From Rhodothermia bacterium (lineage in GTDB: Bacteria; Bacteroidota; Rhodothermia; Rhodothermales; JAAAOL01): DNA of 64,000 nt. The notes below the pieces were generated by a model, which saw only the letters and a program-made list of their open reading frames with translations, was not told where the DNA came from and searched no databases. The stretch lies in contig JAUIDY010000019.1 of the NCBI GenBank assembly GCA_030428385.1, forward strand, positions 1-64,000, read 5' to 3'. A program made the position numbers and the translations under genes. Below are positions 2,853-54,389 of the stretch, in pieces. Within the stretch, counting starts at the first letter, position 1. Every line of letters begins with the position of its first letter.

Positions 2853-3890
2853 TTAATTGCTTGAATCCCGCTTTAATGCACTGGATTCTCTCACACAAAG
2901 TTTGGGGACAATTAGTTGGGCAACAGGATCTTCCAAGTTGCCCTGTTCGATGCGTTTAAGCAGTTGCTCGATAGCCATTTTTCCAACACCCTCCATGTCC
3001 TGGTCTACACTTGACAAGCCCAAGTATTCACTCGTTTTTATGTCATCATATCCAACCAGGGCAATGTCTTGGGGAACGCGCTTGCCAGCATCGCGGATTG
3101 CTTTCCAGGCGCCTATGGCCTGGACATCACTACTTGCAAATACGGCGGTGACTTCTGGAGCCGCAGCCAGCAGTTTTTTCATCGCCTCATACCCATGTTC
3201 TTCACTAAACCCAGCATGTTTTTCTGTTTCACCACTTTGAATGTGGTGTTCATGTATAGGTAGATGAGCCTCTTCCAGGGCGTCTTTATATCCTTCGATA
3301 CGCTTTGTCTGCAGATAACCATCTGTATAAGCTCTGATTAAACCAATATTGCGATGGCCCCGCTCAATCAGGTGATCAACAGCATTTTTTGCACCGGTAT
3401 CATTGTCCCAATAAAAACAGTCAAAGTCGGTATGATGATTACCTACAAGTACAACCGGTGCCTGAAAGGCTTTTAACTCCACCGTTAATCGCTTATCTAC
3501 AGGAACACCTGCAAGCAAAAGGCCATCAACCGTTCCTCGTTTAAGGAAGTTAAGCAACGTTTCTTCAGGCTGAACCGAGCCTAAATCGAAGAGTAATAAG
3601 TCACTTTCTCTGTTGTGTAATTTACTGCGTACTCCTTTGAGTAATTCGTTATGAAAAGGGGTTGTAAACGTTGGGATTGCAATTGCAATTGAGCGGGTTC
3701 TTTTTTGTGCAAGCGTGCGCGCAACGCGATCTGGTCGAAATTTTAATTCCTCAATCGCTTCCCAAACACGCTCCCGCGTTTGATCGGAGACATCGCTGGA
3801 ATCGTTAAGAACACGAGAGACCGTAGAAATGGCAACACCGGCGCGTGCGGCGACATCGTAGATGGTCACTTTGGCTTTATCCTGTGCCAT
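2853..3890 (-). CDS. LacI/GalR-family transcriptional regulator
   Basis: The 345-residue protein has the classic LacI-type helix-turn-helix at its N-terminus (VTIYDVAARAGVAISTVSRVLN, roughly residues 7-28), a hinge helix near RVARTLAQKRT, and a periplasmic-binding-like effector domain to the end. It sits immediately upstream of purC on the same strand. In enterobacteria the purine repressor PurR is also a LacI-family protein, so control of purC is possible, but sugar-responsive members are more common in this phylum and the effector is unknown. No certain operator was seen in the 160-bp upstream gap. Confidence 0.9.
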   Translation of the reverse strand: MAQDKAKVTIYDVAARAGVAISTVSRVLNDSSDVSDQTRERVWEAIEELKFRPDRVARTLAQKRTRSIAIAIPTFTTPFHNELLKGVRSKLHNRESDLLLFDLGSVQPEETLLNFLKRGTVDGLLLAGVPVDKRLTVELKAFQAPVVLVGNHHTDFDCFYWDNDTGAKNAVDHLIERGHRNIGLIRAYTDGYLQTKRIEGYKDALEEAHLPIHEHHIQSGETEKHAGFSEEHGYEAMKKLLAAAPEVTAVFASSDVQAIGAWKAIRDAGKRVPQDIALVGYDDIKTSEYLGLSSVDQDMEGVGKMAIEQLLKRIEQGNLEDPVAQLIVPKLCVRESSALKRDSSN

Positions 3891-4052: not shown

Positions 4053-4814
4053 TTAGGAATACTGCTTTCCCATAAATACAATCGAGCCACGAAGGGCGTC
4101 TTCAATTGGATTTATTGAGTCAATATGAGATCCTAGATAAATGGATTGAAAAGAGGAAAGTGAAAAGCTAAGCCGCTCAACATCGAAGGGGAGTTCGAAT
4201 AGCGAAAAGTCTGACCCATCATAGAACAGTTCAATGGATTTAACATCGCCGTTTTGGCGCGTTGGACCAGAGAAAAGGGTCGGGAGCGCTTCGCCTCGAA
4301 TGATCACCTTTGAAGCACCGAGTTTGTGTATACGCTGAATAGCTACTTGCACGTCATCGAGCGTATTAATCTGCATGCTTGCAAGCAAACAGGCATCCTG
4401 TTGATTGATCATGATCAGGTCAGCCAGAGGAAAAAATGAAGTTAGGGTTTCGGTAGAGCAATCTAGTAAGTCTTCTCCACTTGGCCCACTCAATATCACA
4501 TTCCAAATGACGATGGGAATGGACGCAGTACCTAACCGTGCCCACAAATATTCAAGCCCTTCTTTGTCGCAGACAGCCCCGACAACACAAAACCGGGGGG
4601 TTGAGGTCTTTAGGATGTGATCAATCTGAACGTCAATGGTGTCGGCAGGAACAGGAAGTACATCGGAGACTTGCCCATGACTCGCAGAAACCAATGCGGT
4701 GCATACGGAAAGCGCTTCGATGCCGAGCTGGTGGGCAGCCACCCAATCAGCACCGAGGCCGAAGGTAAGTCCTGCATAATGAGCGCCAACGACAAGTGCT
4801 TGATTCTCGATCAT
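4053..4814 (-). CDS. Degenerate ThiD-like (HMP/HMP-P) kinase
   Basis: The 253-residue protein aligns by eye with hydroxymethylpyrimidine kinase ThiD along most of its length: GADWVAAHQLGIEALSVCTALVSA near the N-terminus, VPADTIDVQIDHIL, an FFPLADLIMINQQDACLLA segment and LGASKVIIRGE. The family's C-terminal HGTGC(T/A)xSS anion-hole and catalytic motif is missing; the equivalent stretch reads LSFSLSSFQSIYLGS. The protein may therefore be inactive as a ThiD kinase or act as a regulator or paralogue. It is the last host gene before the prophage and is divergent from it. Confidence 0.65.
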   Translation of the reverse strand: MIENQALVVGAHYAGLTFGLGADWVAAHQLGIEALSVCTALVSASHGQVSDVLPVPADTIDVQIDHILKTSTPRFCVVGAVCDKEGLEYLWARLGTASIPIVIWNVILSGPSGEDLLDCSTETLTSFFPLADLIMINQQDACLLASMQINTLDDVQVAIQRIHKLGASKVIIRGEALPTLFSGPTRQNGDVKSIELFYDGSDFSLFELPFDVERLSFSLSSFQSIYLGSHIDSINPIEDALRGSIVFMGKQYS

Positions 4815-4906
4815 AAAAAACTGATTTCATGTTGGATTGCGCCCCAAACGCATGAACACCTGTTTACTTCCCAACACACCAGAAAAAGAAGACTATTGCA
4901 TATTCA

Positions 4907-4934
4907 ACGTTTGATAACTATTAATCACATTTGT
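4907..4934. other. attL: half dif-like site at the left prophage end
   Basis: ACGTTTGATAA, CTATTA and then ATCACATTTGT. The first 17 bases are identical to 49098-49114. The right-hand arm (4924-4934) is phage sequence and does not match the inverted arm seen at the other end. This is the pattern expected of attL when only one recombinase-binding arm and the central region are conserved in the phage site. Confidence 0.75.
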
Positions 4935-4946
4935 TCTCCTCGTACC

Positions 4947-5369
4947 TCATGATAGGGCACTAATAATGCTCTGCGTTACGGGTTCAACTGCCCTCGCGAT
5001 TGCGTCGATATTGTCGCTAGTGGCTCCCATTGCGCGAAGATAGGGGTAGATGGGCGGCTCCTCGATGATACGACCCCGCCGCTTTTCGAGAACGCCCCGG
5101 TACTCCTCTGCCAGTTCAGGTAGCTGCGAGGTTATCAATCGTCGGGAGCGCGTTGAAAGATTGAGACCGTTAACGGCTTTCCATATCGTTTTCGTGGATA
5201 CGCCAAGACGATCCGACAATTCCGCCCTGGCGTCGCTCATGGGTCCGGGCGGGTAGGCGGCCAGCACATCGGCAAGTAGTTCCCGGTTCGCGGGAGAGAG
5301 GGGCTGGGCACGCTTGCGCAGGCGTTCGCTGCGGTTGGCGGCGTTGATGAGTGGTTGGTCGTTAGGCAT
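4947..5369 (-). CDS. Prophage HTH protein next to attL, unknown function
   Basis: The 140-residue protein has a central helix-turn-helix-like segment (ARAELSDRLGVSTKTIWKAVNG, about residues 44-65) resembling homeodomain-like resolvase or terminase small-subunit HTHs, in a basic Arg-rich context. It is the gene closest to attL and lies two bases downstream of the RNA ligase gene in the leftward operon. Being next to the attachment site would suit an excisionase or directionality factor, but that is positional inference only. No family is firmly recognised. Confidence 0.6.
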   Translation of the reverse strand: MPNDQPLINAANRSERLRKRAQPLSPANRELLADVLAAYPPGPMSDARAELSDRLGVSTKTIWKAVNGLNLSTRSRRLITSQLPELAEEYRGVLEKRRGRIIEEPPIYPYLRAMGATSDNIDAIARAVEPVTQSIISALS

Positions 5370-6361: not shown

Positions 6362-6584
6362 GCCTGCTTTTCCTCTTTTTACAGGTTAAAGTGCTTTGTC
6401 GTTGTGAGTTTGATAAGAACAATTATGGAACGTTCAGGCGCTAGTTGTACGGCTTTAACTCCTCCTCCATCAACCGGCGCACCAGACAGTCAGCGCAGCG
6501 AGACGAGGCATTATTTCTTCCGGTAGGCTGGGCATTAGGGGATTAGGCTTTTTCGGTCAACAACTCAATTGCATTGCGGCGTGC

Positions 6585-14753: not shown

Positions 14754-15333
14754 GGCTTGCCTCCTCCAAATAAGCTATGGCGTCCTCATTGGAGTCGTAG
14801 AAGTGGCTCGCCGCCTCATCACCCAGGATCAAGCGTCCGATGAGATACGAGTGCATCTTCACCTCTAAAATACGCGGGTCTTTGAGCGCGGCCAGATGCT
14901 CGGCCCATCCCGCAATGCAGTGCGTTGTCCCGCAGGCTTCGACGGGTTTGGCGACGCCGTTTTTCCACTCGCTGTCGCTGTGCCATTCGCCCATTTCGAG
15001 GCGTTCGGGGTGCGCAAGCACTACGCCTGCCACCTCGCTTAGGGATACAAGGCCACGCATCCACTCTCGGTTGGGAATTTCGGCCCCGCGAAGGTCGGCC
15101 TCGCTAAGGTTGGCCTCGCTAAGGTCGGCCCCGCCAAGGTCGGCCCAGCTAAGGTTGGCCCAGCTAAGGTTGGCCCAGCTAAGGTCGGCCCCGCGAAGGT
15201 TGGCCCCGCTAAGGTTGGCCCCGCTAAGGTTGGCCCAGCTAAGGTTGGCCCAGCTAAGGTTGGGCTTTTCTGCCTCACCGCGTCGCCATGCGGCGTGCTG
15301 CTGTACGAGGGCCAATGCTTTTTTTGTAGCCAT
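14746..15333 (-). CDS. Pentapeptide-repeat protein
   Basis: The 195-residue protein has about 12 consecutive A(N/D)LSx pentapeptides (roughly residues 25-85), which fold as a right-handed quadrilateral beta-helix. A C-terminal domain with [17 protein letters not shown] and a DEAASHFYD segment is seen in other bacterial pentapeptide proteins. Some such proteins (Qnr, MfpA) mimic DNA and protect gyrase; no gyrase link can be shown here. The repeat DNA (about 15080-15260) is nearly perfect in 15-bp units, suggesting recent expansion. Confidence 0.8.
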
Positions 15334-15527
15334 TACGCTGCCACCTCCGGGGCTTGCTTGGCGAGGCGTTCATTTGCCGCTCGCTCGTTCCGGCGATGCT
15401 TCACGAAATGCTCAACGGCCTGCACGTAGAAGTCCCCCTTGGAAACCTCCAGGTGCGCCGCTTCGATGCCAGCGTCACGCAAAAGCGGGAGCGGAAGTCG
15501 CAGCGAAGTTTGCTTAACGTTGCTCAT
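15333..15527 (-). CDS. Ribbon-helix-helix-like small DNA-binding protein
   Basis: The 64-residue protein starts [20 protein letters not shown], the strand-helix pattern of Arc/CopG-type ribbon-helix-helix repressors, followed by a basic helix. It is the first gene of the leftward operon at 15.5 kb, directly beside the operator-rich divergent region, which suits an autoregulator. No toxin gene is adjacent. Confidence 0.55.
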
Positions 15528-21280: not shown

Positions 21281-22052
21281 GTTGCAAAAGTGTTGCAAAG
21301 CAAAAAGGGATGCAGGTAAGCCGCTACATCACATCAACACGGCCCGTATCCCTATCGTGCGTGCGTATATTGTGACAAAGCAGATGACGGCAGGACAGGT
21401 GGTAGGCGTGGATAATGCGTATATAATAGGCGTATATGGCTGTATGTAGGAACGACGGTTGTGACAAACCACGTGTCGCACCAAAAGCGTCGATTCTGGC
21501 ACGCTAGGGGCTGTTTTCAATGATTGGTAACGAAGGTTATCAAACGTTGGGCACTCCTATTTAAGCGAAGCGGTGCGTTGATGCGTAGCGGTGCGATTCA
21601 GAGCGGTGTGGTACATGGTGCATACGTATAGCCACGCCAGCTGGTGCAAGGCTGCGGCCTTAGTGGCACGGCGTGGCCTGCGGCCTGCCTGACCGTGCGT
21701 TCCAGGCAGCACGTAGCCCGAAGGTTTTTCAACGAAAAAAAGAGGGGTGCCACCCCCATGCAAGAGGGCGGGGCGTTCTGACATTAAGCCCTTTTATACC
21801 CTCGTGCCGTTTTTACCTTTGCCCTCGTTCACCCTACTGCTGTTTTTAACTTCCTGCAATCCTTGTTTTCATCCGTGGTGGTTTTGCGTGTCAGGAGATA
21901 GGAGTTGTGATAGTTGGTATGGGTGGAGGGTCGTGGTGGGTGGCATCGTGTGGGGGGTAGTCCTTGAGGGCTGGTGGCGCAGCATGGCTATCGCCTACGG
22001 CTATCGCCTGCTGCGGAGAGCGTAGCGTCATCCCTTAAGGTATAGAACGTAT

Positions 22053-23619: not shown

Positions 23620-26600
23620 ATGAGCGTTGACACCTTCCGCAATAGCCCCCGCTACGCCGCCGACATCAAGCGGTTTTGCACAAGCCTTCGTGCGTTCATG
23701 AAGGTGATGTTTCCGCACGCCTTCACGCTGCCGGAGAGCCCCATCCATGCGGAGTTTGACAAACTCGCCACCGACACCACGCTCAAACATGGGGTGATTG
23801 AGGTGTTCCGCGAGTCGGGGAAATGCCTCGCTGCCGGAACGGAGGTATTGATGAGCGATGGTACGCGAAAGCTCATCGAGGACATCGCTGTAGGGGACTA
23901 CATCCTCAGTTACGATGTGGGGGCGGGTTGTTTTGCCACGTCAGATATGATCGTCGGAAAGGTTCATTCTGGCCCGAAGCGCTGCCTGCGCGTCACCACG
24001 GCAAGCGGCAAGCGGGTCACATTGACCCCCGAGCATAAGGTTCTGACCTTTGATGGGTGGAAGATAGCAGGCGAGTTGACCCTAAAAGACCGCATCGCAT
24101 CGCCTCGCCAAAGCGAAAGGTATATGCCCCCCTTGTCTGATTCCTCGGTAAGCGACGAAGAAGTACGCCTCCTAGCATACATGATTGCGGAGGGGAATAC
24201 CACCACGTATGCACAGAAGGATAAAGCGCGCCTCACGCAGGACGGGAACCCGCGCAAGCGCTCAACGAACTGCACCTTCACCAATACAGACTCGGTTATT
24301 CGTGAGGATTTCTGTCGGTGTGCCGAAGCGATGGGGTTCCGGGTGCGCAAAAGAAACAAGACGGCCTTTGGGCTTTCCGCTCCGCAAGGCACGCCCCGCA
24401 AAGACGGCCCCCGCACATGGGCGCGAAAGCATGGGCTTGCTGGCAAAATGGCTCCTGAAAAGCGGGTGCCGGAATGGGTTTTCCGCCTCGGGAGGCGGAA
24501 AACCTGGATGTTTCTTGCCGCGATGATTGACACCGATGGATGGGTGACGACCGCTAAGGCTGAGGTTGGTATCACGCTCGCCAGCGAGGGGCTCATTGAC
24601 GACCTCATGTACCTGTTTATGTCGGTTGGGGTTGTAACCAAAAAGCGGAAGCGCAGCAACAAGTTTGCGGGGGCGTGGGATCTGACCATCGACAAATCAT
24701 ATCTTTTTCGCGCAGCCCAGCGCCTGCCACTTCTGCTAAAAAAAGAGCGCGTGCGCGTTGCGGCAGAAAAGACCTCGCACGGACTGCTTGACACATATCC
24801 GCAGAAAATAGCACGCATGCGGACGAAAACGTGGGGGGCCTACCGCAGGGCAGGTGTTCCTATTGCGGCAAATAAAGTGCACGCCATTACCCGCCCGAAG
24901 ATGCAGGCGATGCTGGCGTTTGATCGGGTACCTGAATGGGAGCATCTTGAGCAAGCGGGCGTGTTCTGGGATCGGATTAAGAAGATAGAGGCTGTTGGCA
25001 TTCGTGACACCTACGACGTGCAGGTGCTGTGCAACAAAAACCTCGTCACGAACGGTCTCGTTACCCATAACTCGACGTTCTTTGCCATCGGGCTCCCCCT
25101 CTGGCACCGCTTCTGCGAGCCCATCGTGCGGTGGGTGCAGGCGGACGGCGACTGGCCCGCTACCTTCAACGAGGTGCAAGCCATCCTGCGGCGCACCGAG
25201 AGCGCGACGTTTACCGTGGTACGATCCAAAAGCCTTAAGGAAGCCAAACGCCGCCTCCGCGCCGTCGGGCTCATCCTCGGCTCGCCCGTCCACCGCTCGA
25301 TGAAACAGGAGGTTATCCAAGGGCGCAGGACCTTTGCGCTCTACTTCGGCGATTGGTCCACGATGTTTGAGAGCGCCACGCAGGAGGAACTACGCATGCG
25401 CGACGGGTCGGTATGGACGGCGATGGGGGCGGACCAGCAGGGACACGGCTTGCAGGAGGACTTCCTGCGCATCACGCTTGCCTTGAACGACGACCCCGAG
25501 ACGGAGAAGAATACCCGCACGCTCGCCACGATGGAAAACAACCTCGACACGTTTATGAACGGGCTCTATGCGGGGCTCGCCCCACGGGGCAGGGCCTATT
25601 CGCTGGGGACGCCGATTGTCGAAGGGTGCCAGATACGGGTGTTGCGCGACCTTGCCGCGACGATGCCCCGCTGGCAGTACCGCCACTACCCACTGCTCGT
25701 GCCGGATGCGGATGCAGGTCCGCATGGCTACCGCAGCGTGTGGCCCGAGAAGTACGGCGTAGACGAGGTGCTTGCCGAGAAAGATGCGATGGCGGCGCAG
25801 GGCAAGGTGTACCTGTGGTATCAGAAATACCAGTGCGAAATAAGGGGGCGTGAAAACCAACTCTTCACCGAGCAGGATATTATGCTCTACCGGGGTGGGC
25901 TAAAGAGGGGGCGCTCGGGCGAGTGGTTCCTTGAAATTACGCATACCGGCTCCTACGCGCACCGCGCCCAGGGAGCGCCCTTCCCCCTCGTGGTGCCCGA
26001 GACGGTGCCGGTGAACCTCTTTGCCGGGCATGACCCGGCCTCGGGGGTGGGCGGCGACGAGGCGGTGTACCTGGTCCGCGCCTACGACGCGACGGGCAAG
26101 ACGGCGTGGGACGGGCGGCACTTTGTGGTGGACTACACAGCGAGTAACACGGCGTCGGTGCCCACGCAGTGCCAGTGGGTGCTGGACGACTACGACAAAC
26201 GCCGCCCCAAGGCCACCTGCGTCGAAGGGGCGTTCTTTGACGAGTCGATGCAGACGGTGATGCAGACCGAGACCTCGGTGCGCGGGGCCTATCCCAACAT
26301 TACCAAAATCACGCCGCGCATGGGCAAGGGCAAGCGCTACATGCAGGAGGTGCAGGGAGCATTCAAAGGCCACCGCGTCTTTGTGCGCCCCGAACACACG
26401 GCGCTCATTGACGAAGCCCTCACGTTCAACATCACGCGCAAAGACAACAAGGACGACCACCTGGACGGGTTTTGGCTTTCGACCAAGGAGAACTGGCCGC
26501 CCTCACACACGCTCTCGGACCTGGGCCCCGCCCCGCCCGCCGCCACGCCCCACGAAACCTACCTCGCCTATGCCCAAGGCACCTTCGCTTCGCGCCGCAC

Positions 26601-26634
26601 GGGCGCACTCAATAACGACTGGCAAACAAGCTAA
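23620..26634 (+). CDS. Large terminase subunit interrupted by an intein
   Basis: The 1,004-residue precursor would splice to a 588-residue terminase. The N-extein ends VFRESGK and the C-extein begins STFFAIGLP, together rebuilding a Walker A motif. Later come a Walker B-like LALNDDPE, a motif III-like YSLGTPIVEG, and the RNase H-type nuclease domain with FAGHDPASGVGGDEA, CVEGAFFDES and KDDHLDG acidic residues. It packages phage DNA into the prohead using ATP. The intein must be removed for ATPase activity because it splits the P-loop between Lys68 and Ser485. Confidence 0.92.
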   Translation: MSVDTFRNSPRYAADIKRFCTSLRAFMKVMFPHAFTLPESPIHAEFDKLATDTTLKHGVIEVFRESGKCLAAGTEVLMSDGTRKLIEDIAVGDYILSYDVGAGCFATSDMIVGKVHSGPKRCLRVTTASGKRVTLTPEHKVLTFDGWKIAGELTLKDRIASPRQSERYMPPLSDSSVSDEEVRLLAYMIAEGNTTTYAQKDKARLTQDGNPRKRSTNCTFTNTDSVIREDFCRCAEAMGFRVRKRNKTAFGLSAPQGTPRKDGPRTWARKHGLAGKMAPEKRVPEWVFRLGRRKTWMFLAAMIDTDGWVTTAKAEVGITLASEGLIDDLMYLFMSVGVVTKKRKRSNKFAGAWDLTIDKSYLFRAAQRLPLLLKKERVRVAAEKTSHGLLDTYPQKIARMRTKTWGAYRRAGVPIAANKVHAITRPKMQAMLAFDRVPEWEHLEQAGVFWDRIKKIEAVGIRDTYDVQVLCNKNLVTNGLVTHNSTFFAIGLPLWHRFCEPIVRWVQADGDWPATFNEVQAILRRTESATFTVVRSKSLKEAKRRLRAVGLILGSPVHRSMKQEVIQGRRTFALYFGDWSTMFESATQEELRMRDGSVWTAMGADQQGHGLQEDFLRITLALNDDPETEKNTRTLATMENNLDTFMNGLYAGLAPRGRAYSLGTPIVEGCQIRVLRDLAATMPRWQYRHYPLLVPDADAGPHGYRSVWPEKYGVDEVLAEKDAMAAQGKVYLWYQKYQCEIRGRENQLFTEQDIMLYRGGLKRGRSGEWFLEITHTGSYAHRAQGAPFPLVVPETVPVNLFAGHDPASGVGGDEAVYLVRAYDATGKTAWDGRHFVVDYTASNTASVPTQCQWVLDDYDKRRPKATCVEGAFFDESMQTVMQTETSVRGAYPNITKITPRMGKGKRYMQEVQGAFKGHRVFVRPEHTALIDEALTFNITRKDNKDDHLDGFWLSTKENWPPSHTLSDLGPAPPAATPHETYLAYAQGTFASRRTGALNNDWQTS
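23824..25071 (+). other. Intein with LAGLIDADG endonuclease domain in terminase
   Basis: The 416-residue intein spans residues 69-484. It begins with Cys69 (CLAAGTEVLMSDGTR, block A), has block B TPEH (136-139), two LAGLIDADG-type motifs (LLAYMIAEGN at 184-193 and LAAMIDTDGW at 299-308), block F-like DTYDVQVLCNKN, and ends HN (483-484) before a Ser +1 residue. All residues needed for standard Cys-type splicing are present. The endonuclease motifs keep Glu191 and Asp305/Asp307-type acids, so homing may be active. Insertion in the most conserved P-loop is typical of inteins. Confidence 0.95.
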
Positions 26635-48904: not shown

Positions 48905-49097
48905 GGCGGGGGTTTACCTACTACTTCGCCGTTTGCCGGTGGTTTGGCTCACGGCTTTTTGAGTTTGGGCGGGGCGTAGCGTCAAGGTCGTGTCATCCCC
49001 TGAAAAAAAGTTTTCGCCGTTTCCTGCCTTTTTACGCAGTTTGGCACGATTTGGTGTTTTGGTGTAAAGGTACGAAAAAGAACAACTTGCACCTGTT

Positions 49098-49125
49098 ACG
49101 TTTGATAACTATTATTATCAAACTA
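49098..49125. other. attR with a complete dif-like recombination site
   Basis: ACGTTTGATAA, centre CTATTA and TTATCAAACTA form a 28-bp site whose inner 9-bp arms (GTTTGATAA/TTATCAAAC) are perfect inverted copies. This is the 11-6-11 geometry of Xer dif sites. Its first 17 bases repeat attL at 4907-4923. The start codon of the tyrosine recombinase is 13 bp to the right. Confidence 0.8.
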
Positions 49126-49138
49126 TCCAGAAAACGAA

Positions 49139-50089
49139 ATGTATATGCCTCAGTCGCTAGTTCATGCAGATTCTCGCGTCCTTCAAGAAGCGCAAGTTAA
49201 CTTCGGCTCACTGATCGATCTCTATCTAAAAAAATTCGACCGTGTGCAAACGATGCGTGCGTATCGGTCCGACTTGATTGATTTTTTTACGACTGATGAT
49301 GTCACGCTCGACATAGTTCGGCAAGTGTCCTTTGTCCATGTCAATCAATATATCGCCTCATTACAAAACGATGGATATAAGGCGTCGACATTGAAACGCC
49401 GTGTGGCTGCCCTCCGGGGGTTCTTCGATTGGCTCGTCGCCCTCGGCGTTCTTGAGCAGAATCCTGCACATCGGCAGCTCATTCGCCGAATTCGAGGATC
49501 AAGTCAGAAAGATCGCGGGGTTTTGTTTCTATCGGCCGAGCAAGCTGAGCGCCTTCTCGATGCCTCTCAAAATGCTGGAAAAGCATCGGTACGAAATTAT
49601 TCCCTCTTGAAAGTCTTGCTGTATTGTGTATTGAGAAGGTCTGAAGCCGCGTCAATGGACGTAAATCATATTCGTCCGCTTGGTCACTATTGGGTCCTGG
49701 ATTTGCCCTCAACAAAAGGTGGAGCCGATCAATATGTGAAGATTCCTGCGCACGTAGTCGAGCAAATTGAAGTCATGAAAGCCCACTACGGATTCTCGGA
49801 TGGCCCGCTTTGGCGTTCCCTTAGTAATAACAGAAAAAACCAACGGCTTTCGCCTCACTCCATTTATCGCATCGTTAAACAAGCTGCCATAGCTGCCGGA
49901 CTCGATAACGAAATTGGAGCACATACCCTGAGGCATACAGGTTGTACCCTGGCGCTGGAAGCAGGCGCAACGTTACAACAGGTTCAGACCCACGCGCGGC
50001 ATAAGAACATCGAGACAACCATGATATATATCCACCAGCGCGACAAATTACGTGATAGCGCAGCTGACTTTATTCATTTAAAAGGATAA
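49139..50089 (+). CDS. Xer-like tyrosine recombinase
   Basis: The 316-residue protein has an N-terminal SAM-like core-binding domain and a complete tyrosine-recombinase catalytic set: Arg166 (LLYCVLRRSEA), Lys193 (STKGG), His262/Arg265 (AHTLRHTG), His288 (THARHKN) and Tyr297 (TTMIYIH). Length and layout match XerC/XerD/XerH-type proteins rather than lambda-type integrases, which carry an arm-binding domain. Its AT-richer base composition resembles the host genes. It lies outside the 17-bp repeat and directly beside the dif-like site. It may be a host single-recombinase system or the phage integrase; see findings. Confidence 0.88.
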   Translation: MYMPQSLVHADSRVLQEAQVNFGSLIDLYLKKFDRVQTMRAYRSDLIDFFTTDDVTLDIVRQVSFVHVNQYIASLQNDGYKASTLKRRVAALRGFFDWLVALGVLEQNPAHRQLIRRIRGSSQKDRGVLFLSAEQAERLLDASQNAGKASVRNYSLLKVLLYCVLRRSEAASMDVNHIRPLGHYWVLDLPSTKGGADQYVKIPAHVVEQIEVMKAHYGFSDGPLWRSLSNNRKNQRLSPHSIYRIVKQAAIAAGLDNEIGAHTLRHTGCTLALEAGATLQQVQTHARHKNIETTMIYIHQRDKLRDSAADFIHLKG

Positions 50090-50109: not shown

Positions 50110-50547
50110 TCACACTGAACGAGGATCCACCCATTCCGAAGTCCCATCTGCGTAATACTCCTTCTTCCAAATCGGGACTGTTTTTTTTAAGGAATCGATC
50201 AGAAACCGGCACGCAATAAATGCGGCATCGCGATGGGCGGCGGCAACGCCAATTATTACACTCGCTTCAGCCACTGGCACTAATCCTAGCCGATGGCTTA
50301 CATATACCCTTTCAATTTCCCACCTCTCCACGGCAGATTGAATTAATCGTTCAATTTCGAGCTTAGCCATGGGCGTGTAGGCTTCATATTCAAGCCGATG
50401 AGTCTCTTTTCCTTCGGTCCATTGCCTTGTGGTACCTATAAATACATCAATCCCCCCCACTTCAGGCAAGGTCAAGAAAGACATCATAGTATCAAACTCT
50501 AGGGGTGTTTGTGAGATTACTATTTGATATTTATTTTCCTTTGCAAT
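50110..50547 (-). CDS. moaE: Molybdopterin synthase catalytic subunit, ATT start
   Basis: The 145-residue protein has MoaE features: VGGIDVFIGTTR, LEYEAYTPMAKLEIERLI, VSHRLGLVPVAEASVIIGVAAAHRDAAF and PIWKKE with the catalytic lysines. It transfers sulfur from MoaD to precursor Z in molybdenum-cofactor synthesis. The first in-frame ATG (50487) would cut off the conserved N-terminal strand. An ATT at 50547 lies 8 bp after a GGAGGA ribosome site that overlaps the moaD stop, so ATT is the likely start. Confidence 0.88.
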   Translation of the reverse strand: MAKENKYQIVISQTPLEFDTMMSFLTLPEVGGIDVFIGTTRQWTEGKETHRLEYEAYTPMAKLEIERLIQSAVERWEIERVYVSHRLGLVPVAEASVIIGVAAAHRDAAFIACRFLIDSLKKTVPIWKKEYYADGTSEWVDPRSV

Positions 50548-52151: not shown

Positions 52152-54182
52152 TCAACTTGTTCCCTCTGAAGCTTGTACCGGAGTGAACGAATAAGGAGGA
52201 AAAGGGCCAGAAATATTGAACGAAAAGCCCCGTGAACGAAAACGTTCGCGTAAGTTCATCATTTGGGCCATAAAATCTCCTTCATCAGATCGACGCACCA
52301 AATACGTGGCACTCATGACTAGGTCGCCAAGTTCATCGTCTTTCTCTTCTTGAACCTCATCAAGCTTGCTATCTTCCGCGTATTCGAGAAACGACTCGTG
52401 GCTTACCTTGACGCAGTTTTGAGTAGCAGACTCAACCTCCTCATGAATTGCAACAACCATTTGTTTTTTAATGAAATGAGCCACCCCACGAGGTTTACTT
52501 TTAATGTCATTCATTAACTCCTGCACCTTCGTGCTATCTTCCATAACCCGCCGGCGAAGTTGCTCCACATCACTAAAGATTTTCATCCCCCATTCTTGAC
52601 TGCCTTGCAGTTGGCTGAGGGTATCTTTAAACGCCTCCTGGTGCCCATCGAGCATATTTTTTAGCTCATTCTCTGTCTCGAACACCGTCCCGAAACGCAT
52701 CGGGATTAGGGTAGCATGTTGCATGGCCTGCTCCAGTACCTTTTCATGCGCAGGAGCATATTGTTCAACCCATTGGTCATCTTCAATGTGTTCGCGCACC
52801 ATTTCCTTGCTAAACTCAGGAAGCGGTACCCGACTCACCAAGGCTTGAATTGTGCCATGCTGATAAGTAAAGACCTGGTGATCCGCATAAATACTTTGTT
52901 GCGGGAGTACATCATCGTTCATGATTGAGTCATCGGGCATGACCCCATACACATAGTACCCAAACTCCGGTGCCTTAACAGCAGCCTGAAAGTCTTCCCA
53001 GATAATGGTCCGCGTCTCGTCCGTATCGATCAGAATTGTTGCGTCGTCCTCCGGAGCCTCCATGAGTTCGTTCTCTACGGGCTCTTCGACAATTAAATCA
53101 GGTGATTCTGTTGAAGCGCTCGCCAAGGAGTCCCCTTGGGTTTCCGATGCCGTTGCGCTGTCATCGGGTAAAGCCAACCACGCATCCTCTTCCGGTAACT
53201 CTTCGGTCTCGATATCCCCGAAATAGGCAACCTCTTCTTCCCCTGCACTTTCTGAAAAGTCATCGTCGAAAGACAAGGCACTGTCGAGCGCTTCAAGATC
53301 TGAAAACGCCTCTTCGGCCTCGCCATCAATCTCAAGCTGTGCCGTTTCCAAAAAATCTCCTTCGAAGAGCAGCTCTTCGTGCTCAGAAAGATCGCGGATA
53401 AACGTTTCGGCATCCTCGAAACCGGCAGCACTGACACCAGAGGTTTCGACGGCTTCTTCCTCCAGAGCGGCAGCCGCTGCAACCACCCCGGCTGTTTCCT
53501 CTTCGGGCTGATCAATAAAGGCGGTGCCGAGGGCTTCCTGAGCGGCTTGCTCCATGGCTTCTGCTTCATCCGTCACGTGCTCTTCAGGAGACGCCTCATC
53601 TGCCATCACTTGAGGCTGCGCCAATGAATGGTCGGCCTCCTCTTCTGCATCCTCTAGGCCGGAGGTCTCTTCATCAGAGGAGACCTCCTCACTGAAAAAA
53701 GGGTCAGAGGAAGCTTCCTCCCCCAGCTCCTCATCCGCTGGATTTTGTTCGTTCCATTCCCAATCGGGTTCGCTTTCCTCCAAGATGTCGTCATCCATCA
53801 TCTCTTCGAAGACATCAACGACCTCTTCATCAAGGGCATCAAGACCATCGAGGTCATCCAGTGCCTCCTCATCCAAGTCGGCAAGGAGATCATCAGTCGG
53901 TGCTTCACCTACTTCATCTCCGATCTCTTCGATGGCTTCGGACATGATCTTATTTAGCAAGCGCGACTTGAGGGCTTCCTTTGCTTGTTGCAGCACCTCG
54001 GCGTCCTCCCCAAGCGCTTCCATCGCTTCTGATGCCGTGGCCTCCGGATCACTCAATTCATCCATCACCTGCTGAATCATGGTCTGGATGAGCTTCCTTT
54101 TCAGGTTTTTTTTAGCCTTGGTCAGTGATTCACTGCGCCCAAGAAGTTGGCCTAATCCTTTGGGATCTGGGGTTGTTTCCAT
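52152..54182 (-). CDS. GvpF/L-domain protein with a 400-residue acidic N-terminal region
   Basis: The 676-residue protein has a C-terminal GvpF/GvpL gas-vesicle domain (about 408-676): FGYYVYGVMPDD, AHEKVLEQAMQHATLIPMRFGTVF, and SFNISGPFPPYSF. Before it is a helical start (residues 1-100) and about 300 residues dominated by Glu, Asp, Ser and Ala with no globular motif. Normal GvpF/L proteins are near 250 residues. No gvpA, gvpN or other gas-vesicle gene lies in the window. Its own terminator follows. ATG 54182 is preferred to the frame's first ATG at 54293. Confidence 0.75.
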   Translation of the reverse strand: METTPDPKGLGQLLGRSESLTKAKKNLKRKLIQTMIQQVMDELSDPEATASEAMEALGEDAEVLQQAKEALKSRLLNKIMSEAIEEIGDEVGEAPTDDLLADLDEEALDDLDGLDALDEEVVDVFEEMMDDDILEESEPDWEWNEQNPADEELGEEASSDPFFSEEVSSDEETSGLEDAEEEADHSLAQPQVMADEASPEEHVTDEAEAMEQAAQEALGTAFIDQPEEETAGVVAAAAALEEEAVETSGVSAAGFEDAETFIRDLSEHEELLFEGDFLETAQLEIDGEAEEAFSDLEALDSALSFDDDFSESAGEEEVAYFGDIETEELPEEDAWLALPDDSATASETQGDSLASASTESPDLIVEEPVENELMEAPEDDATILIDTDETRTIIWEDFQAAVKAPEFGYYVYGVMPDDSIMNDDVLPQQSIYADHQVFTYQHGTIQALVSRVPLPEFSKEMVREHIEDDQWVEQYAPAHEKVLEQAMQHATLIPMRFGTVFETENELKNMLDGHQEAFKDTLSQLQGSQEWGMKIFSDVEQLRRRVMEDSTKVQELMNDIKSKPRGVAHFIKKQMVVAIHEEVESATQNCVKVSHESFLEYAEDSKLDEVQEEKDDELGDLVMSATYLVRRSDEGDFMAQMMNLRERFRSRGFSFNISGPFPPYSFTPVQASEGTS

Positions 54183-54389
54183 AATACGTTCGCTTGCCCT
54201 TTGGTTATGCTGAATTTCCCCGGTACAAAAATCAACATTGGTATCGGGTAGTTTAGGCAATTCCTTTAACGCACGCAAACAAACAATTTGCACGCTTCAG
54301 GGTATGGAGCCCCCTCAAGGGCTTCTCTCTCGATGGTGCTAAAAACAGATGCAGAACGCCCTCTCTACCTTCGCCCAAACCACTTCGAT

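Follow-up and report, generated by a model that had tools for sequence, protein, structure and literature searches.

Nearly all bacteria resolve chromosome dimers with XerC/XerD, and few replacements are known (XerS, XerH and XerL). In the XerS/difSL and XerH/difH systems, a single recombinase works with a gene-linked dif at the terminus instead of XerCD (PMC2731167, PMC5357621), and in the Legionellales a single recombinase, XerL, is paired with a terminal palindromic dif that was revealed by LME-1 (PMC9765430). Phages are also associated with such sites: TLCphi of Vibrio cholerae, a satellite phage linked to CTXphi, uses XerC/XerD (PMC5357621), and filamentous and tailless prophages sit at dif, host Xer being used by the filamentous ones (PMC4246890, PMC11630473). 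A narrow search of the openly licensed literature found no tailed phage that integrates at dif, and no paper on Xer/dif in Rhodothermus, Salinibacter or other Rhodothermales was found there.

Here we describe a locus in the window (that is, the whole stretch of 64,000 nucleotides analysed, from a Rhodothermia bacterium), for which we consider it likely that a host dif/Xer module at the terminus replaces XerCD and is used for integration by a tailed phage that has no integrase. Like XerS and XerH, the module would be gene-linked, with a terminal dif in place of XerCD (PMC2731167, PMC5357621), but its recombinase (P0001) is shorter (316 aa), scores far below the XerS cut-off (NF003462, 50.2 versus 267 bits) and adjoins arms of the GATAA-N6-TTATC type. 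As with LME-1, a mobile element that carries a dif mimic and integrates at dif exposes the system (PMC9765430), whereas here the site lies directly upstream of the gene, a tailed phage of 44 kb is the mobile element, the host belongs to the Bacteroidota/Rhodothermota and the system is known from sequence alone. By analogy, the phage would work like an IMEX (integrative element exploiting Xer) with the attP layout of TLCphi, in which arm and centre are identical to dif, the second arm is divergent and the host recombinase is relied on (PMC5357621); unlike TLCphi, it is of tailed type and its target is gene-linked and non-XerCD. It shares the targeting of dif with the filamentous and tailless prophages and differs from them in its tailed type.

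Attachment sites and gene content of the prophage

The right end of the prophage carries a 28-bp dif-like site (attR, 49098–49125, forward strand) that is intergenic, low in G+C and composed of two inverted arms of about 11 bp around a 6-bp centre, ACGTTTGATAA-CTATTA-TTATCAAACTA, the first arm being phage-derived and the second belonging to the host. At the left end, the attL core (4907–4923, forward strand) consists of the left arm and centre, ACGTTTGATAACTATTA, and in place of a right arm there is diverged phage sequence, ATCACATTTGT, so that the two-armed right boundary and one-armed left boundary described in the sequence-only reading are borne out. In the whole 6.19-Mb assembly, this 17-mer has exactly two copies, both at the prophage ends (the next best matches have three mismatches), and the full palindrome, with up to three mismatches allowed, occurs on this contig only. 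When the flanks are joined, a complete site is restored between left flank and recombinase, 13 bp upstream of the ATG at 49139 as had been proposed, with a predicted attB of ...ATATTCAACGTTTGATAACTATTATTATCAAACTATCC... and a reconstructed attP of ACGTTTGATAA CTATTA ATCACATTTGT, which has the arm and centre of attB and a divergent second arm. The earlier description of the rebuilt site as perfect was overstated, given that its arms agree at 9 of 11 positions (the inner 9 bp are identical and the outer 2 differ). The reported change in the base preceding the arm, from A at 4906 on the host side to T at 49097 on the phage side, is present; as T is the usual base at this position in the sites of relatives, the phage appears to carry a slightly longer arm. 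The suggestion that this change creates a promoter, TACGTTTG, upstream of the recombinase is rejected, because there is no −33 TTG element at a suitable spacing and relatives often have T at that position as well.

Between these sites lies the integrated genome of a tailed phage, about 44.2 kb long (4924–49097), which encodes TerL, a portal protein, a major head protein, a DnaB-like helicase and an Erf-like annealing protein, the matches of the portal, TerL and major head protein showing tailed-phage type and no finer class. Consistent with the earlier claim that the prophage holds no other recombinase, neither tyrosine (PF00589) nor serine (PF00239) recombinases gave a match in it, and no integrase was found among its open reading frames scanned against PHROGs and Pfam, some small frames being outside that scan. 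The first frame beside attL (4947–5369, reverse strand) has a weak helix–turn–helix match and is, speculatively, a candidate regulator or directionality factor. The 28-bp site has no exact match in the viral contigs scanned, and no relatives of the phage portal were found in viral contigs, phage genomes or 114 Rhodothermales genomes.

Several further features of the prophage were observed. Two dif-like palindromes lie outside its main open reading frames (6408–6431 and 21522–21545), each two mismatches from GTTTGATAA-N6-TTATCAAAC, a level at which none of 300 shuffled controls had any; their centres differ from CTATTA and they should therefore not pair with attB. They could serve as accessory sites, in multimer resolution or as sites for a regulator. 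The terminase large subunit (23620–26634) contains an intein that has a LAGLIDADG domain and seems to interrupt the Walker A motif. The translation of the frame at about 14840–15517 is rich in repeats that resemble one 12-residue sequence, which suggests that this stretch of the prophage is a tandem repeat and not a gene.

The recombinase and its linked site in relatives

The recombinase gene (49139–50089, forward strand) encodes a Xer-like tyrosine recombinase that is conserved in Rhodothermales. Its G+C content (0.48) is close to that of the host flanks (0.46–0.51; prophage, 0.609), as expected of a host-like gene. The host left flank comprises a SAICAR synthetase gene (1855–2898), a LacI-family regulator gene (2853–3890) and a gene of the phosphomethylpyrimidine kinase family (4053–4814), all on the reverse strand. 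In four prophage-free relatives (loci L086, L088, L090 and L095), these gene families lead straight into the recombinase, which there directly adjoins the kinase-family gene, whereas in the window the same three genes stop at 4.8 kb and the recombinase begins at 49.1 kb, with the prophage between them. As its orthologue adjoins the left-flank genes in prophage-free Rhodothermales, the recombinase is a host gene; this synteny and the G+C content uphold the earlier statement that it lies outside the repeat and is host-like, and prophage-free relatives have the gene at the same place beside the same neighbours, with an intact palindromic site upstream of it, as that reading anticipated. On the right, moaE (50110–50487, reverse strand) lies beyond the left-flank genes in relatives and thus has been moved by a local rearrangement. 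Further along this flank, a 713-aa host protein (52152–54293) has a C-terminal part that matches the gas vesicle protein GvpL/GvpF.

Proteins related to P0001 (E ≤ 1e-25) were found in 63 of 113 Rhodothermales genomes, the named best matches being from Rhodothermales/Rhodothermaceae metagenome-assembled genomes and Roseithermus. Its catalytic motifs align with those of XerD, its scores are below the canonical XerC/XerD cut-offs (TIGR02224, 123.8 versus 335 bits; TIGR02225, 120.6 versus 330 bits) and XerH is a weak PDB match (42 bits). It belongs to a clade separate from XerC/XerD in a quick tree that has long branches, an uncertain deep placement and no XerH sequences. Eleven PF00589 matches are present in the host genome; they include a close paralogue (55% identical; contig C230, 1035–1910; locus L097) that has no linked dif-like site.

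The palindrome follows the orthologous gene. GATAA-N6-TTATC was present within 1 kb upstream in 24 of the 35 orthologue loci (dinucleotide shuffles: mean 0.025, maximum 1; downstream regions: 0) and in none of 7 paralogue loci; the exact motif was absent from that interval in the remaining 11, including most loci of Rhodothermus-type genomes, which have no recognisable linked site. The outer arm positions vary between lineages yet resemble each other within a site: their dyad symmetry is 3.35 of 6, above the maximum of 3.2 reached by 2,000 permuted pairings, as would be expected if one protein reads both arms, and some relatives have palindromes matching at 11 of 11 positions. The site belongs to the recombinase gene. 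Within one genus it lies beside this gene in all six genomes, in each of which the exact left arm and centre occur once (in the host itself, the 17-mer lies at the prophage ends only). One of these genomes, G048, has an additional, inverted half-site of left arm and centre (16 of 17 positions; L091, contig C14, 3121–3137), 118 bp from the intact dif, which resembles the attL layout of the window and may be left over from a further integration event; it was the only second copy of arm and centre found near the dif sites of relatives. Reading frames that look HNH-like by eye lie directly upstream of the recombinase at four loci (L078, L082, L093 and L096); at L078 and L082 these separate dif from the gene, and at L079 other DNA lies between the two.

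Position at the terminus and rival explanations

The host assembly is fragmented, and the location of the terminus is therefore known from relatives. In four of these (G003, G007, G011 and G013), the recombinase locus lies at 0.47–0.53 of the genome from dnaA. GC skew, sampled in three complete relatives, changes sign within 100 kb of the locus in each (at −48 to +52 kb relative to the gene in G007, −56 to +36 kb in G011 and +36 to +96 kb in G003), so that the switch proposed to lie near the site is found there, opposite dnaA. The search for a separate XerC/XerD pair likewise gave a result that favours the linked Xer: canonical XerD was above the cut-off in 0 of 25 Rhodothermales genomes (best score, 176 bits versus 329.6) and present in each of the 35 Bacteroidota sampled from outside the order, of which four belong to the same class. 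Rhodothermales have lost canonical XerC/XerD. On the basis of this loss, the linked palindrome in relatives and the position of the GC-skew switch, the site is very probably the chromosomal dif of the order, served by the gene-linked Xer. Synteny, the sites of relatives, GC skew and the absence of XerD together support the central proposal of the sequence-only reading, namely that a host gene-linked Xer/dif pair serves as the attachment site.

We envision that the recombinase at 49139–50089 and the 28-bp site upstream of it would form a dif/Xer module at the replication terminus, taking the place of the XerC/XerD that Rhodothermales lost. Lacking an integrase, a tailed phage would bring an attP that combines the distal (left) arm with the 6-bp centre; the host recombinase may then bind the shared arm and exchange strands within the centre. 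The left end would thus receive a half-site (attL), an intact dif would be rebuilt beside the recombinase (attR), and the lysogen would keep a working dif. The phage agrees with an IMEX in two respects: no recombinase was detected in it, and its attP has the dif arm and centre, so that integration rebuilds an intact dif. Catalysis by P0001, dimer resolution, the involvement of FtsK and a single-recombinase mode are what we infer from the sequences.

The strongest alternative is a two-protein system in which the linked recombinase pairs, in the manner of XerC/XerD, with Xer2, a conserved unlinked Xer-like protein (for example, on contig C17 of the host; L189–L208), the site still being dif. Conservation of Xer2 across the order makes such a system possible: nearly every family sampled has genomes that encode it, and the recombinase-poor genomes G003, G024, G034 and G044 have exactly two Xer-like proteins each. 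However, arm symmetry exceeds that of chance pairings and is complete at some sites, Xer2 accompanies either type of linked recombinase although their arm sequences differ, and no dif-like site was found at Xer2 loci; we therefore regard this pairing as rather improbable. We give still less credence to a recombinase that is the domesticated integrase of an old mobile element, with the site as its attachment site, no role in dimer resolution and reuse by the phage. The distance of P0001 from canonical XerC/XerD (124 and 121 bits versus 335 and 330), its separate clade and the occurrence of paralogues in varied contexts without the site would fit such an origin, but in three genomes the GC skew switches at this locus, its synteny is conserved across families and canonical XerCD has been lost in the same order.

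The remaining alternatives change the enzyme or its owner. Given the 11 PF00589 matches in the genome, another host recombinase, such as the 55% identical paralogue on contig C230, could catalyse integration; yet that paralogue has no such site upstream, and the site co-occurs with the orthologous gene and not with paralogues, which makes this very unlikely. Phage integrases often adjoin their attachment site, and P0001 might accordingly be read as phage-encoded, with the true boundary further right. This reading has next to no probability: the G+C is host-like, moaE follows at 50110, and in prophage-free relatives the orthologues adjoin the left-flank genes seen here, a synteny on which other boundaries are rejected. 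We thus favour the host gene-linked dif/Xer module borrowed by the phage.

A second linked recombinase type in Rhodothermales

A P0001-type gene is missing from about half of the Rhodothermales genomes searched, and many of these genomes carry another type, which occurs in many Rhodothermales and is placed with XerC/XerD in the tree. This second, XerD-like type (L250, L254, L255, L258, L259 and L261–L290) often has a linked palindrome, ATGTAACATAA-N6-TTATGTTACAT; counted by eye and with mismatches in the outer arms allowed, palindromes of the ATGNAACATAA-N6-TTATGTTNCAT type lie upstream in roughly 20 of 30 loci. The XerD arm of Escherichia coli dif is TTATGTTAAAT, and by their likeness to it both arms of the second-type site look XerD-like. 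Both recombinase types stand in tandem in Salinibacter-like genomes (L114–L116) and in G052 (L113), with opposite gene order in the two lineages, as if in mid-replacement; from this we infer that one module was replaced by another at the terminus.

On a broader scenario we are evenly divided: Rhodothermales may have given up XerC/XerD, and most of their genomes may now rely on either of two dif/Xer modules that are unrelated, gene-linked and palindromic, namely the XerD-derived one with ATGTAACATAA-N6-TTATGTTACAT or the separate-clade one with GATAA-N6-TTATC, the kind present in the window, which apparently is replacing the first at the terminus; mobile elements, a tailed phage among them, would exploit these modules. 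If true, a whole order without XerCD but with two gene-linked modules would offer a series of natural cases in which the replacement of such a system can be studied. The phage described here shows that a tailed phage may dispense with an integrase by borrowing a gene-linked dif.
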